From Chryseobacterium gleum (GTDB lineage: Bacteria; Bacteroidota; Bacteroidia; Flavobacteriales; Schleiferiaceae), in contig CAMCXO010000023.1 of NCBI GenBank assembly GCA_945883565.1, positions 1-45,126 on the forward strand: a stretch of 45,126 bases of DNA, given 5' to 3'. Positions 40,541-45,126 of the stretch are shown in pieces. Position 1 is the stretch's first letter. Every line of letters begins with the position of its first letter. A model generated the notes under the pieces. That model saw only the letters and a list, made by a program, of their open reading frames with translations. It was not told the origin of the DNA and searched no databases. Made by a program: the position numbers and the translations under genes.

Positions 40541-40778
40541 GGCAACGCCACGAAACACCCAAGCCCTGAAAGGGCGATATAAGGTTATGTGTATATGGAG
40601 TATGTATCGACATAATGCTTGCTGTATTACACCCCTTCGGGGCTGGTTATGGATGATGGCATCTTCTTATCCGATGGGCGATGCCCATCGTTGGTGTATG
40701 TCGCCCCTTCGGGGCTGAGCATCATAGCCCTGTAAGGGCGTAATCCCTTAGCGAGGCGGTAATGCCCCTCGCTATGAT
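40541..40778. repeat. REP-like hairpin array, unit 1 (long form)
   Basis: A 238-bp unit starting GGCAACGCCACGAAAC. It contains a row of hairpins: GCCCTGAAAGGGC, CCCCTTCGGGG, GATGGGC-GAT-GCCCATC (40673-40689), a second GCCCCTTCGGGGC, GCCCTGTAAGGGC and an imperfect GCGAGGCG hairpin near the end. This long form has about 22 extra bases (GGATGATGGCATC region) that are missing from units 2 and 4. The next unit follows directly. Confidence 0.85.
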
Positions 40779-40994
40779 GGCAACGCCACGAAACACCCAA
40801 GCCCTGAAAGGGCGATATAAGGTTATGTGTATATGGAGTATGTATCGACATAATGCTTGCTGTATTAAACCCCTTCGGGGCTGTTTTCGATGGGCGATGC
40901 CCATCGTTGGTGTATGTCGCCCCTTCGGGGCTGAGCATCATAGCCCTGTAAGGGCGTAATCCCTTAGCGAGGCGGTAACGCCCCTCGCTATGAT
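40779..40994. repeat. REP-like hairpin array, unit 2 (short form)
   Basis: A 216-bp copy almost identical to unit 1, but the segment between the first CCCCTTCGGGG hairpin and the GATGGGC hairpin is reduced to a few bases (TTTTC). It contains the same 48-base spacer between the GCCCTGAAAGGGC and CCCCTTCGGGG hairpins that the transposase gene replaces in unit 3. Confidence 0.85.
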
Positions 40995-41669
40995 GGCAAC
41001 GCCACGAAACACCCAAGCCCTGAAAGGGCGTAATATATTAGCAAGATGTTTATATCTAATCCCAAACATATTTTTCGTCATATTCAACGTGATACTTTTT
41101 TAGAAACGCACGATACTCATCCTGAAACGTTTTCTTACTATGATGTTCGTGTTGATTTGCGATGTATGCAATCACTGTATCAACTTCTGAAGGATTAACA
41201 GAGAAAGCTCCGTAACCATCTTGCCAATAAAAGTTTTCATAGCCCACCCCCTTTGTCTTTATCCATTTGGAGGAATTTGATTTTAGTTCTTCCATCAGTT
41301 TCATCAAGGCTATCTTTTTGGAAAGCATACAAAGGATGTGGATATGGTCGGTGTAGCCGCCTACTTTAATGACGGTGCAATCGAGTTTGTTGCAGATGCC
41401 ACCGAGATATGCGTGTAGTTCTGCCTCTACCGGAGGATGTATCAACGGCTCACGGTGCTTGGTGCTGAATACAATGTGCATATAATTTTTTACGAGCGAC
41501 TGTCCCATAGTTTTGTATTACACCCCTTCGGGGCTGGTTATGGATGATGGCATCTTCTTATCCGATGGGCGATGCCCATCGTTGGTGTATGTCGCCCCTT
41601 CGGGGCTGAGCATCATAGCCCTGTAAGGGCGTAATCCCTTAGCGAGGCGGTAACGCCCCTCGCTATGAT
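40995..41669. mobile_element. REP-like unit 3 (long form) carrying an IS200/RAYT-type transposase gene
   Basis: The left part (40995-41030) is the unit start through the GCCCTGAAAGGGCG hairpin. The right part (41516-41669) resumes at TATTACACCCCTTCGGGG and runs to the unit end, in the long form. Between them the 48-base spacer of the other units is replaced by about 485 bases that contain the complete transposase gene. Thus the hairpins flank the gene on both sides as in REP/RAYT elements and IS200/IS605 ends. Confidence 0.75.
41056..41508 (-). CDS. IS200/IS605-family Y1 (HUH) transposase, REP-associated (RAYT-like)
   Basis: A complete 150-residue Y1 transposase. The HUH metal-binding motif is HIH at residues 55-57 (GGYTDHIHILCML) and the candidate nucleophile is Y115 (DTVIAYIANQHEHH). 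The family segments MHIVFSTKHREPLI and FYWQDGYGAFSVN are also intact. These enzymes cut and join single-stranded DNA at hairpin ends. The length equals typical IS200-like TnpA, and the surrounding short palindromes point to the REP-associated (RAYT) subgroup, which mobilises or maintains repeats in trans. No TnpB/IscB accessory gene is present. It is transcribed on the minus strand within a repeat unit. Confidence 0.92.
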   Translation of the reverse strand: MGQSLVKNYMHIVFSTKHREPLIHPPVEAELHAYLGGICNKLDCTVIKVGGYTDHIHILCMLSKKIALMKLMEELKSNSSKWIKTKGVGYENFYWQDGYGAFSVNPSEVDTVIAYIANQHEHHSKKTFQDEYRAFLKKYHVEYDEKYVWD

Positions 41670-41849
41670 GGCAACGCCACGAAACCAAGCCCTGAAAGGG
41701 CGATATAAGGTTATGTGTATATGGAGTATGTATCGACATAATGCTTGCTGTATTACACCCCTTCGGGGCTGTTTTCGATGGGCGATGCCCATCGTTGGTG
41801 TATGTCGCCCCTTCGGGGCTGAGCATCATAGCCCTGTAAGGGCGTAATC
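41670..41849. repeat. REP-like hairpin array, unit 4 (short form, truncated)
   Basis: A short-form copy with a 3-base deletion after CGAAAC. It contains the 48-base spacer and hairpins, but stops after GCCCTGTAAGGGCGTAAT, where it is joined to the hsdS remnant at about 41849. The missing part is the GCGAGGCG hairpin and unit end. Confidence 0.8.
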
Positions 41850-42060
41850 CCCCTGCAAATAGCTTTCAAAAAGTTCTTTGGCGTTTTTGAGGTTTTGTTC
41901 GCATTATTTCGACTTCGCTCAATAACCGAAAAGGCTTCATCTAATATGGAAACGATGCGTTGTTGTTCGGGGAGAGATTTTGGGTAAGCAACATTAATTT
42001 CTTTCAAAAGCCTATAATGTCGGGCATACCCCAAACTTCCTAAATCAATATTTTGTAAGA
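41849..42060 (-). pseudogene. hsdS: Type I restriction-modification specificity subunit HsdS, C-terminal remnant with frameshift
   Basis: Minus-strand translation gives NIDLGSLGYARHYRLLKEIN, then YPKSLPEQQRIVSILDEAFSVIE, the usual sequence at the start of the HsdS C-terminal conserved helix. The frame then breaks at about 41900-41903: one missing base separates it from QNLKNAKELFESYLQG, the classic HsdS ending, which reads in a shifted frame up to the repeat junction at 41849. Both target-recognition domains are absent. HsdS would determine the DNA sequence recognised by a type I system; this copy cannot work. Confidence 0.85.
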
Positions 42061-42251
42061 AACGCTTCGTCAATAATTGGCGTGTAAATCTTGCCTGTAA
42101 GTTCGGCTGCTGTGGCTCGGTCTTTCTCCAAGTCGTCCAAATATTTAAGGAACAAAATCCAAGAGGTTTGCTCCACATAGTCCAACTCACTGCCGCAACC
42201 TGCGTCTTTGTGAAGTATATCGTCAATATTTTTAAAGGTTTGTTCGAACAT
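42060..42251 (-). pseudogene. hsdM: Type I restriction-modification methyltransferase HsdM, N-terminal remnant
   Basis: From ATG 42251 the minus strand encodes MFEQTFKNIDDILHKDAGCG, then SELDYVEQTSWILFLKYLDDLEKD and AAELTGKIY, the standard N-terminus of HsdM. Similarity ends at about residue 60, after which the sequence switches into hsdS material; the frame itself stops at 42045. The whole SAM-binding and catalytic region (including the NPPF motif) is gone. The structure indicates one large deletion joining the start of hsdM to the end of hsdS. Confidence 0.88.
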
Positions 42252-42515
42252 TATTTATGTCTGTTTTTAATTTCGACTGGCTCAATTACAATCAATTTGT
42301 AAAGTTATCATTCTTGTTGGTGCGGTGGCAAAAAATGGCTCTTTTGGTTTTGCTGAAGGGTCGGCTTGTGGGTGGGGCAAAACCAAATGTGCCATTTATG
42401 GGCTGGCAATTCAAAATATTTTGTGCGCTGGGAAAAAATTAAAACACAGAAGGGTAGGCAATGAATGTCGGCTTACTCGTTGTCCGTTTGTTGTATCGTT
42501 TGTCAAAATGTGTTG
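42252..42515. other. Non-coding DNA upstream of the hsdM remnant
   Basis: No gene is supported. It contains an 11-bp perfect inverted repeat, TTTGGTTTTGC (42343-42353) with GCAAAACCAAA (42377-42387), around a 23-base G-rich loop. It may hold the former hsdM promoter, but no consensus box was found. Confidence 0.4.
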
Positions 42516-42557
42516 ATTGTATATGCGATTGTATATGCGATTGTATATGCGATTGTA
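42516..42557. repeat. Tandem 12-bp repeat
   Basis: Three perfect copies of ATTGTATATGCG (42516-42527, 42528-42539, 42540-42551) plus half a copy (ATTGTA). The last half-copy runs into a 28-bp palindrome. Confidence 0.95.
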
Positions 42558-42582
42558 AAGACAGGGCATGCCCTGTCTCTAC
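42555..42582. repeat. 28-bp near-perfect palindrome
   Basis: The two 14-base arms (42555-42568 and 42569-42582) are complementary except at one position; the perfect core is GACAGGGCATGCCCTGTC. It resembles dispersed palindromes that occur in many Bacteroidota and other genomes. There is no adjacent T run, so it is not an obvious terminator. Confidence 0.85.
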
Positions 42583-42598
42583 GTTATGTGTGCGGGCC

Positions 42599-43484
42599 GT
42601 TGAACACTCGAAGTCTGTTGATAATGTGAAAATGGTGGTAAAAGAATGGAGGAAGTAAAGGGTATTGTTGAATGTTTGAAGTTTGTGGTTTAAGGGTGAA
42701 CAGCAGTGGTGCAAATGAAGGTGTTGTGGGTTTAGCGATTCCTTTTGTTGGTAGAATTGAAAACGTTGGCGGTAAAATTGAAAATGCTCACGGTGGAACC
42801 GATAACGTTCGTGGTGGAAATGAAAAACTTGGTGGTTTAATGTAAATGTCCGCGGTTTAGCGTTGAATTCTGTTGCTTAGTGTTGACACCGATGGTGCAA
42901 GTGAAAAAGTAGGTGGTAAAATTGAAAATGCTCGTCGCTTAATTGAAAAAGGCTTTGGTGCAAGGTTTGACGCCTGTGGTGCAGCGGATAATGCTCGTGG
43001 TAAAATTGAAAACGCCGGTGGTGCAATTGAAAATGCCTATAAATTGCTGTTTGACGGCTGTGGTTGAAAGTTAGATTTTAGTAGGCGAAGTTGAAGACGC
43101 TGGCGGTTGAATTGAAAAAGCCAACACCTGAAAGTGGTGAAGGCTTCCGTTTTTTTGAAAACGTCGTCTGCTTTTTTGCAGACGCCTGTGGTGGATGGTT
43201 TGAAGCCTGGTCAGGTTCGTTAGATGTCGGGTGATTTTTTGAGAATGCCGGTTTCGTTTTTGAAAACGTCGTCTGCTTTTTTGCAGATGCCGGCGTTGGA
43301 AGGTTTGAGGTTTATAAATATTTTGGAAACGTCGGTAAAAAAATTGAAAATGCCTATTAATGAATGCTCGAAGTCAACTAATAACTGTTTGATGCCGGCG
43401 TTGGAAGGTTCGAGGTTTATAAAAATTTTGGAAACGTCGGTAAAAAAATTGAAGAAGCCGACTGATTAATGCTCGAAGTGGGCG
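42599..43484. repeat. Degenerate part of a 21-bp minisatellite
   Basis: Sequence with a clear but eroded 21-base period. Recognisable units include those at 42599 (GTTGAACACTCGAAGTC), 42667 (GTTGAATGTTTGAAG), 42751 (GTAGAATTGAAAACG), 42772, 42916, 42999 and 43020 (GTAAAATTGAAAA type). Only small slips occur: the distance from the unit at 42667 to the one at 43485 is 818 bases, one less than 39 units. Several in-frame stops exist in every long reading frame tried, so it is not a gene now. From about 43146 a 105-bp (five-unit) higher-order repeat is superimposed. Confidence 0.8.
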
Positions 43485-43946
43485 GTTGAATGTTTGAAGT
43501 CATCAGTTTAACGCTTGAAGTCTCCAGTTGAACGTTTGAAGCCGGCAGTTGAACGTTTGAAGCCGGCAGTTTAACGTTTGAAGCCGGCAGTTTAACGTTT
43601 GAAGCCGGCAGTTGAACGTTTGAAGTCGGCAGTTTAACGCATGAAGTCGACGGTTGAACGTTTGAAGCCGGCAGTTTAACGTTTGAAGCCGGCAGTTGAA
43701 CGCTTGAAGTCGTCAGTTGAACGTTTGAAGTCGGCAGTTTAACGCTTGAAGTCGGCAGTTGAACGCTTGAAGCCGGCGGTTGAACGTTTGAAGTCATCGG
43801 TTGAACGTTTGAAGTCGGCAGTTGAACGTTTGAAGCCGGCAGTTGAACGTTTGAAGTCGTCAGTTGAACGTTTGAAGCGGGCGGTTGAACGTTTGAAGTC
43901 GACGGTTGAATGTTTGAAGTCGACGGTTGAATGTTTGAAGCGGGCG
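43485..43946. repeat. Homogeneous 21-bp minisatellite, 22 units
   Basis: Exactly 22 consecutive 21-base units with no insertion or deletion. The core is GTTGAACGTTTGAAG followed by six variable bases, most often CCGGCA or TCGGCA, also TCGTCA, TCGACG and CGGGCG. Variation is confined to a few positions: the fourth base is T in six units (GTTTAACG), base 7 or base 9 is C or T. Most units contain the palindrome AACGTT. Both strands show open frames (heptads VERLKSA on plus, NVQLPAS on minus), but these are translations of the repeat with no credible start or context. Confidence 0.95.
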
Positions 43947-44043
43947 GTTTTTCGAGCTGGCATGCTGAAAGGGCCGCGGTTTTAGAATGGTGTTTGTTGG
44001 GACAAATGGGACATTAGATACTGATTGTATGCTAATTGGGATT
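43947..44043. other. Non-coding junction after the minisatellite
   Basis: The 21-bp pattern ends abruptly at 43946 and gives way to unrelated sequence. No gene, promoter or hairpin of note was recognised. Confidence 0.4.
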
Positions 44044-44180
44044 CGCGCCAGGGATTGAAGCGGAAAGCCCACAGCCGCCATAAGCAATGGCTTGTGAATT
44101 AATCATGCCTATGCTTAACTCCTAAAAATCATGGTTCTGACATTGGCGGCGAGGACTTGCAGCGCAAAGCCCGGCCCGCG
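44044..44180. ncRNA. Candidate structured RNA or dispersed structured repeat
   Basis: Two similar strings, GGGATTGAAGCGGAAAGCCC (44051-44070) and GGACTTGCAGCGCAAAGCCC (44153-44172), flank a perfect 7-bp long-range pair GCCGCCA (44074-44080) / TGGCGGC (44144-44150). An inner hairpin CCAT-AAGCA-ATGG (44078-44090) and an outer CGCG/CGCG pair (44044-44047 with 44177-44180) can be added. The nested pairing and internal symmetry look like a folded RNA, perhaps related to Bacteroidota intergenic motifs such as flavo-1, but this is from memory of the pattern and the strand is unknown. A further GGGCA/TGCCC pair lies at 44183-44222. Confidence 0.35.
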
Positions 44181-44294: not shown

Positions 44295-45126
44295 TTAAGG
44301 TTTAACCCATTTTACTTGGGTGATGCGCTGTTCGCTTTCTACTTCTATTATGTAAGTACCACTTGCTAAATCGCTTAACAAGAGTTCGGTTTGTGGGTTT
44401 TGGGAGGTAGTGCTGCGCCATACGCGGCCTTGCAAATCAATTAACTGAATGTGGCTGCCTATAGGGGCATCTACGTAAACCTTATGCTGGCCCGGATTGG
44501 GATAAACCTTTATTTTGGCTGCGTTCAGGATTTCGAGACCAATGTTTGTGGTGGTAAAGCTTAGTTCGTTTCCGTAAGCAGTTCCGGCGCTGTTGGTGGC
44601 ATAGGACTTTATAAAGTAAGTGGTGTTTTGGCTTAATCCACTTAAGATGCTGCTGTAGCTGCCCACTGCGATTCCGGCTGTGGTGATATTATCGGCCAAA
44701 CTGGGGTTACCGGAGGTGTTGTAACAAAAGCCGCGGGCGGTTAGGTTGCTGCCACCATTGCTAACAACCGTTCCAAATGCCGTGGCAGAATTGTTGGCAA
44801 TGTTTGCCACGCTATCGGTAGAAAGTGTTGGCATGCCGGGCATTGAAGTTGTAAAACTGAGTTCGTTGCCATAAGTGGTTCCCAAACTGGTGGTTGCATA
44901 GGCTTTTACGAAGTAAGTGGTGTTTGGAGACAGTCCACTTAAATTGTTGTTGAAACTTCCGGGCCCTGAACCGGCTGGGCTGGTGCTGCTAGAGATTGTT
45001 GGGTTTCCGGTGGTGTTGTAGCAGAAGCCCCTAGAGGTAATAGCGGCTGGTCCGGCTGCCAAAGCCCTACCATAAGGAATGGCTGTATTTTGGGTAACGT
45101 TTGCTACCGAATCTGTAAATACGCTT
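44295..45126 (-). CDS. T9SS type A sorting-domain protein with fibronectin/Ig-like repeats (5' part outside window)
   Basis: The frame is open from the TAA at 44295 to the end of the window (276 residues seen; a TTG at 45062 is internal, not the start, because homologous repeat sequence continues beyond it). About two and a half copies of a repeat of roughly 94 residues are visible, each with DSVANxxxNxA, ARGFCYNTxGNP, LSGLSxNTTYFxKxYATxxxGTxYGNELSFTT. This is the common Bacteroidota beta-sandwich surface repeat. The last 75 residues (KIKVYPNPGQHKVYVDAP through ASGTYIIEVE to VKWVKP) are a Por sorting tail, so the protein is exported by T9SS. A strong terminator follows. No enzymatic domain is seen in the visible part. 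Confidence 0.9.
   Translation of the reverse strand, partial: SVFTDSVANVTQNTAIPYGRALAAGPAAITSRGFCYNTTGNPTISSSTSPAGSGPGSFNNNLSGLSPNTTYFVKAYATTSLGTTYGNELSFTTSMPGMPTLSTDSVANIANNSATAFGTVVSNGGSNLTARGFCYNTSGNPSLADNITTAGIAVGSYSSILSGLSQNTTYFIKSYATNSAGTAYGNELSFTTTNIGLEILNAAKIKVYPNPGQHKVYVDAPIGSHIQLIDLQGRVWRSTTSQNPQTELLLSDLASGTYIIEVESEQRITQVKWVKP

Follow-up and report, generated by a model that had tools for sequence, protein, structure and literature searches.

A dispersed family of 21-bp-phased repeats with few off-phase indels and its association with a leader in front of defence genes in a Chryseobacterium gleum assembly

The stretch of DNA analysed, here called the window, comprises 45,126 nucleotides of contig CAMCXO010000023.1 from an assembly designated Chryseobacterium gleum. 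Towards its right end an intergenic repeat array is located to the right of a transposase gene and of remnants of hsd genes. The features of this region were assigned as follows (window coordinates, strand, identity and basis):

41056–41508, reverse strand: Y1 (IS200-like) transposase, 1.05 kb left of the window array (Pfam PF01797, 2.2e-26)
41753–42226, reverse strand: open frame containing part of a type I specificity subunit; it overlaps the HsdM remnant (PADLOC Specificity_I, 7.3e-10; no Pfam match)
42045–42251, reverse strand: 68-aa remnant of the N-terminus of a type I methyltransferase (PADLOC MTase_I, 1.4e-14; Pfam HsdM_N, 5.7e-6)
42559–42578, no strand: perfect 20-bp palindrome AGACAGGGCATGCCCTGTCT at the left end of the window array (sequence)
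42599–42654, forward strand: block-B-type header segment with core GTTGAACACTCGAAG, 5 bp off the block-A register (BLAST of 42560–42654 against other loci; spacing)
42655–43308, forward strand: block A, diverged sequence in 21-bp phase, 654 bp (copies at 9 loci)
43286–43479, forward strand: block B, 1.8 copies of a higher-order unit of 105 bp = 5 × 21 bp (Tandem Repeats Finder, period 105)
43485–43946, forward strand: block C, 22 units of 21 bp with consensus GTTGAACGTTTGAAGCCGGCA (Tandem Repeats Finder and unit table)
44042–44180, forward strand: Flavo-1-like repeat in the right flank of the array (Rfam, 26.8 bits, below the gathering score of 42)

Additional repeats were observed in the flanks. 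The segment 42250–42560 contains another dispersed intergenic repeat of approximately 70–190 bp, which is also present on C7, C10 and C3 and weakly on C2. Just left of the palindrome, at 42515–42557, a 12-bp tandem repeat GATTGTATATGC was found in 3.6 perfect copies, and the repeats flanking the Y1 transposase (40672–41820) gave sub-threshold Acido-Lenti-1 RNA scores. On the far right an open-ended frame of repeated domains runs on the reverse strand (44295–45125), the end of which looks like a C-terminal sorting domain of secreted Bacteroidota proteins.

With the 21-bp lattice counted from the first full unit, block C was resolved into 22 whole units without any indel, exactly as the preliminary description of this DNA had stated, and Tandem Repeats Finder reported a period of 21, 22.2 copies, 86% matches and 0% indels for 43475–43940. 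The identity at lag 21 was 0.871 in 43485–43946 versus 0.260 in 1000 dinucleotide shuffles (z 26.5) and 0.468 in 42655–43479 versus 0.270 in the same number of shuffles (z 12.1). When the whole window was scanned for lag-21 excess, only segments starting at 42526–43786 exceeded the cut. The identity at lag 7 was clearly raised only in block C (0.43), with values of 0.30 in block A, 0.29 in block B and 0.21 in a further block, D, that occurs at other loci. In block C, positions 1–15 of the unit form a mostly conserved core with common variants at positions 4 and 7, followed by a variable 6-bp linker (170 units from 8 loci, chosen for matching the core at 12 or more of its 15 positions, a choice that favours this result). 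By position the linker was variable at 6 to 8 of the 8 loci, positions 1, 3, 5, 12 and 13 being invariant, and variants seen only once numbered 20 in 14 core positions versus 25 in the other 7 (p = 0.002).

The preliminary description had also proposed that one continuous 21-bp array starts at 42599, decays gradually towards the left and possibly grows at its right end. The periodicity does reach back to about 42655; the header at 42599, however, is out of register by 5 bp. From its core to the next one at 42667 the distance is 68 bp, that is 3 × 21 + 5, so the register breaks between the header and block A, and this boundary is probably a recombination junction. In place of a gradient a step was found at 43485: the matches to the block-C consensus per unit were 1–15 of 21 to the left (6–14 in the last eight units) and 15–21 of 21 to the right, and the lag-21 identity was alike in block A (0.46) and block B (0.47). 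The left part is a distinct, dispersed block rather than a product of local decay, and growth at the right end finds no support and does not fit this anatomy.

The core was searched for elsewhere in the genome, as had been suggested, and TTGAANGTTTGAAG was found 127 times, clustered at 21-bp spacing, with no occurrence of the reversed control. A DNA search of the own genome with 42560–43960 gave at least 63 matches among the best 40 of 49 candidates; these were grouped into at least 21 loci, which is a lower bound, and two small fragments (C28:1–81 and C10:74204–74273). The window array is therefore one member of a modular dispersed family with at least 21 loci on a 21-bp lattice. Block A is present at 9 loci, its other eight copies being 85.6–88.2% identical to the window copy over 633–654 bp. 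Block B occurs at 13 loci in tandem runs of up to 8 units, block C with 10 or more units at 8 loci, and block D, another 21-bp unit, in C5, C17 and C3a. Loci with several blocks share one orientation, in which block A is followed by block B or by a right extension of block A and then by block C or D. Some loci carry only part of the blocks, for example block A alone at C48, C26, C29 and C31.

The palindrome region with AGACAGGGCATGCCCTGTCT that heads the window array also heads the block-B loci C4, C10, C12, C16, C17 and C3a, and a second, different palindrome precedes block A at C7, C18, C3b, C48, C26 and C5. Neither palindrome is present at C29, C31, C3c and C55. The copies at C44, C46, C8 and C2 start at a contig end; since contigs end at or within these repeats, array lengths may be underestimated. 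The copies are spread over many contigs, and the GC skew of their flanks, used as a replication-strand test for the loci other than C44, C2, C46 and C8, was near zero and mixed.

For the comparison of indels with substitutions a second repeat served as reference. This leader repeat of approximately 290 bp (reference copy L039:4760–5046, corresponding to C5:9859–10145 in the own genome) is co-duplicated with block A in six copies. Over the 293 columns of these six copies its minimal number of changes is 82, and about six indels have occurred, two of which fall in a G run. Block A of the same six copies shows 173 changes and no indel, and all nine block-A copies together show 620 aligned columns, 199 of them polymorphic, with at least 229 changes and again no indel (Fisher p = 0.0013 against the leader for six copies, p = 0.0004 for all nine). 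Successive block-B units lie 105 bp apart with one exception of 84 bp. In a strict set of 43 of the 56 block-B units (at least 80% like the consensus, 13 dropped) from 12 loci, 269 changes were counted on a UPGMA tree without any off-phase spacing (p = 0.0002 against the leader); all 56 units give 443 changes, but some boundary units run into block C. A run of seven A in block B shows some substitutions and no insertion or deletion in any unit. Each change is taken as an independent event in these tests, and no gaps were allowed when the block-B units were cut.

The distance between cores is in many cases a multiple of 21, the largest being 57 × 21 at C17. The net drift of one base that the preliminary description had noted was recovered: two cores are 524 bp apart (25 × 21 − 1) in the window, as they are at five further block-A loci (C7, C3b, C48, C26 and C5). 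Further off-lattice core distances are 128 and 104 bp at C18, 104 bp at C3b, 38 and 87 bp at C48 and 62 bp at C26, and the block-D array at C3a has a 1-bp slip. Conservation by position modulo 21 did not reach significance in either block A (p = 0.07) or block B (p = 0.15), and among 14 periods tried in block A, period 42 gave p = 0.046 and period 63 gave p = 0.001. The A/T autocorrelation, which bears on DNA curvature, contained no 10–11 bp sub-period. Within the family off-phase indels are rare despite many substitutions, whereas the non-phased, co-duplicated leader carries ordinary indels, and the register looks constrained. This comparison supports the earlier suggestion that exact phasing over two helical turns matters.

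Since 21 bp equal seven residues, avoidance of frameshifts in protein-coding heptad repeats would also preserve the register, and block B does offer a single open forward frame of up to 333 codons (C17), free of frameshifts, with 11 stops versus 36 expected and a stop in just 2 of the 43 strict units. Its third codon positions are, however, the least variable (0.127 versus 0.132 and 0.162; 0.089 versus 0.097 and 0.126 in the strict set), and stops are depleted, to a smaller extent, in the two open reverse frames as well (19 versus 29 and 18 versus 35 expected). In block C, T at position 4 interrupts the frame in 21 of 193 units. In block A every forward frame of each copy holds 3–24 stops, and of the six frames of all copies only one reverse frame of one copy is free of stops. 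With no third-position bias in block B and stops in blocks A and C, the family is probably non-coding, and the coding explanation is very improbable. Frameshift avoidance is accordingly an unlikely reason for the missing indels, which leaves a constraint of DNA geometry as the simplest one.

Transcription of the arrays into a structured or sponge RNA would fit their intergenic position, the single orientation per locus and the adjoining Flavo-1-like RNA repeats, for which sub-threshold matches were also obtained beside 6 of 8 other copies scanned. Inside the window array, however, Rfam gave no match up to E = 1, the linker capable of pairing (GCCGGC) is the most variable part, and an RNA has no need of a strict 21-base register; this explanation, too, is highly doubtful. 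For known RNAs, only sub-threshold matches beside the array were obtained.

A stronger competitor is a selfish or neutral satellite, that is a functionless dispersed family spread by recombination or by REP-type palindromes with a Y1 transposase, which grew in unit steps through unequal exchange and in which the exact phase is a by-product of homogenisation. Palindromes stand at many left ends, the Y1 transposase lies close to the window copy, and at C29 and C31 a frame that appears Y1-transposase-like by eye is joined directly to block A (the C31 frame has no Pfam match). Exchange between loci is implied by the mosaic combinations of blocks and by common variants that recur at identical positions in most arrays. 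A satellite explains this mosaic as well as the restriction of the sequence to one genome, no match having been obtained in 118 relatives. On the other hand, homogenisation should not erase indels and yet leave hundreds of substitutions while the co-duplicated leader gained indels; and since each locus has just one copy of block A, unequal exchange inside the locus could not have removed indels from it. A functionless satellite is a real possibility that ranks close behind our preferred explanation, and it does not account for the missing indels.

The surroundings of the leader connect part of the family to phage defence. Besides short palindrome matches, the leader has 12 matches of 139–287 bp in the own genome, 7 of them full-length and 5 partial (approximately 140–190 bp). 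Its gene-proximal end carries TATATATACACGAAAATATACTGTACTTTTT, and the next gene to the left of every copy reads away from it at a distance of 10–430 bp. Of the 7 full-length leaders, 6 (all but that at C2) have block A immediately upstream, whereas none of the 5 partial leaders has. Conversely, a leader adjoins block A at 6 of the 9 block-A loci, and in 5 of these cases the first or second gene behind the leader is a defence gene. Among all 12 copies, 9 have a defence gene within the first four same-strand genes behind the leader according to PADLOC and Pfam. The genes behind the individual copies are:

C5: type I R (PADLOC)
C18: DRT UG14 (PADLOC)
C3b: type I M (PADLOC)
C7: ResIII-type (PADLOC, weak, 3e-5; Pfam ResIII, 1.5e-12)
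C6: AbiU (PADLOC)
C26: DUF4349, then AbiU (PADLOC)
C2: a 213-aa gene, then type IIG (PADLOC)
C8: type I R and a methylase/specificity frame (PADLOC)
C4: Wadjet JetA/JetB as third and fourth gene (PADLOC)
C34: protein with two ATPase domains and a weak type II restriction match (not among the 9 defence copies)
C48: cyclase with a sensor propeller (not among the 9 defence copies)
C64: 291-aa protein without any match (not among the 9 defence copies)

At C7 and C3 the dispersed repeat known from 42250–42560 of the window sits between the leader and the defence gene. A search for the leader in 98 relatives, with up to 7 best candidates scored per genome, returned just one 31-bp palindrome match. 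The leader is possibly a shared promoter of a defence regulon.

The association does not extend to the whole family. For 10 flanking proteins from 7 of the 11 block-B loci lacking block A, PADLOC gave no match in 8 cases and weak shared-domain matches in 2 (HtpG, 1e-8, and an amidotransferase, 6e-5), and where Pfam named genes at the scanned loci, these were ordinary ones. That block B lies beside ordinary genes at the loci scanned counts against coupling a binding array to defence. C4 breaks this contrast, as its block-B array is located 0.65 kb from a partial leader with the Wadjet genes about 3 kb away.

The same observations bear on a recombination platform, in which arrays and leader would provide shared homology for swapping defence genes behind one 5′ region. 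Trypanosome surface-gene expression sites, which have adjoining 70-bp repeats, offer an analogy. Such a platform is suggested by the occurrence of the leader, in its full or partial length, before genes as unrelated as HsdR, HsdM, ResIII-type, DRT UG14, AbiU, type IIG and Wadjet, by the junction of most full leaders to block A, and by the window copy, which looks chimeric. In that copy block A has no leader, hsd remnants lie to the left, and a block-B header takes the leader's place. Plain homologous recombination, however, needs no 21-bp register, and apart from C4 a clear defence gene was missing among the flanking proteins at the scanned block-B loci. As the main explanation the platform is unlikely, and it is compatible with the one that we prefer.

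We tentatively prefer, at somewhat less than even confidence, a phase-constrained DNA-binding array that is partly coupled to a 5′ region common to defence genes. The copies before virus-defence genes together with the near-perfect phase suggest a DNA-binding scaffold rather than random decay of repeats. Selection would keep the 21-bp lattice matched to two B-DNA turns, most likely because a putative DNA-binding protein occupies a site at every second turn. With approximately 10–70 sites per locus on one face of the helix, an array could nucleate a long cooperative nucleoprotein structure. Where it precedes a leader, it would probably act from upstream on this presumed promoter, be it as scaffold, silencer or insulator; alternatively, it may have served as homology for the exchange of defence cassettes together with the leader. 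The agreement of 21 bp with two helical turns is suggestive; since 21 is also 3 × 7 and heptamers of the GTTTGAN type occur in this order, the agreement may be a coincidence. The off-lattice distances, the weak conservation modulo 21, the lack of a 10–11 bp sub-period and the small number of stops in the open frame of block B also count against this explanation. A more far-reaching version, in which an architectural protein bound to a genome-wide two-turn satellite controls or marks a defence regulon of unrelated anti-phage genes with one 5′ leader and arrays upstream, is improbable.

Repeats in bacteria are commonly regarded as selfish DNA or as DNA in decay. In the present case the co-duplicated leader provides an internal control, and the comparison with it suggests that the precise helical spacing of non-coding DNA is under selection. 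If the link between leader and defence genes is functional, a single regulatory module would serve much of the phage defence of one bacterium, which bears on the question of how acquired defence genes come under control.

Several known systems resemble the family in part. Bacterial minisatellites or VNTR loci consist of head-to-tail units in intergenic positions with unit variants within the array, and the window array, with head-to-tail copies of a unit in the range of 10–100 bp, intergenic position and variant units, is of this tandem class; it differs by its at least 21 dispersed loci, the 105-bp higher-order units, the recurring block order and the paucity of off-phase indels. Plasmid iterons and ParR-type centromere repeats are direct repeats at whole helical turns with a conserved core and a variable linker. 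The present array shares direct repeats in helical register, with some off-lattice exceptions, and a conserved core, but its copies are dispersed on many contigs, and no replication or partition (Rep/ParR-type) gene was found among the flanking proteins scanned, a subset of the neighbours. The role in chromosome segregation that the preliminary description had considered is not favoured, given copies on many contigs and some before defence genes. REP/BIME elements are short palindromic units mobilised by a REP (Y1, IS200-like) transposase. The present family shares with them its intergenic dispersal, the palindromes found at the left end of many loci and the proximity of a Y1 transposase to the window copy, whereas blocks A–D are non-palindromic direct repeats of hundreds of bases with palindromes at left ends only; the family was not assigned to this class, as the 21-bp blocks are non-palindromic and there is no sign that the Y1 enzyme moves them. 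Eukaryotic higher-order satellites are built from monomers and multi-monomer higher-order units with diverged flanks. A monomer, a 5-mer higher-order unit and a diverged flank are likewise present here, but the family is prokaryotic, short and spread over many small loci. A CRISPR-like array was ruled out, the 21-bp units being contiguous without spacers. In the portions of the literature available no account of a comparable bacterial array was found, which does not prove that none is in print.

Heptamer repeats such as GTTTGAN occur in other Flavobacteriales; they share similar words (TTTGA/TTGAA) and the relation 21 = 3 × 7 with the present family, which differs by its period of 21 and a distinct third heptamer. 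A two-unit pattern with 2 mismatches allowed was found in 1 of 119 genomes, the own one, and in 0 of 118 relatives, among which four congeners with 80–94% completeness also gave no match. The same pattern had no match in the genome contig collection or in viral contigs, and blastn found no match to the array in plasmids; a phage or plasmid origin was accordingly discarded for these collections. A DNA search of 59 relatives (up to 6 best candidates scored per genome) returned just one 57-bp heptamer-repeat match and one 30-bp match. Since no other genome among those searched has the sequence, conservation across species cannot be shown.

The spacing alone was compared across the order with TTTGA repeated four times. 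At 21-bp spacing the own genome had 102 matches, and up to 10 each were found in 20 of 394 other genomes; at 20- or 22-bp spacing the own genome had none, and either spacing gave matches in 3 of 395 genomes. The reversed control gave 0 in the own genome and some matches in other genomes, up to 33 in G347. Loci with the 21-bp matches were read from 16 of the 20 genomes. About six of them (L123, L124, L234–L237, other Flavobacteriales) are short diverged 21-bp arrays of unrelated sequence with no evident gene, stop-free frames of 107–151 codons running across the arrays of L124, L123 and L235; the remaining loci read were coding-looking or simple or heptamer repeats. Two of the three genomes matching at 22-bp spacing, which belong to the host's family, contain short 22-bp arrays (L240 and L241); by eye, these adjoin a gene start. 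Given the short 21-bp and 22-bp arrays, small two-turn arrays may recur across Flavobacteriales.

For an empty-site comparison, 12 stretches from six relatives around HtpG and the ribonucleotide reductase (RNR), several of them short contigs, were inspected and contained no clean empty site. In these stretches DPPIV is not located beside HtpG, and the window's Y1 and 276-aa neighbours are not located beside RNR. The best among the matches listed for the window's ribonucleotide reductase was that of the MAG Cryomorphaceae bacterium CPBay_Spr15G08_3, with 84% identity.
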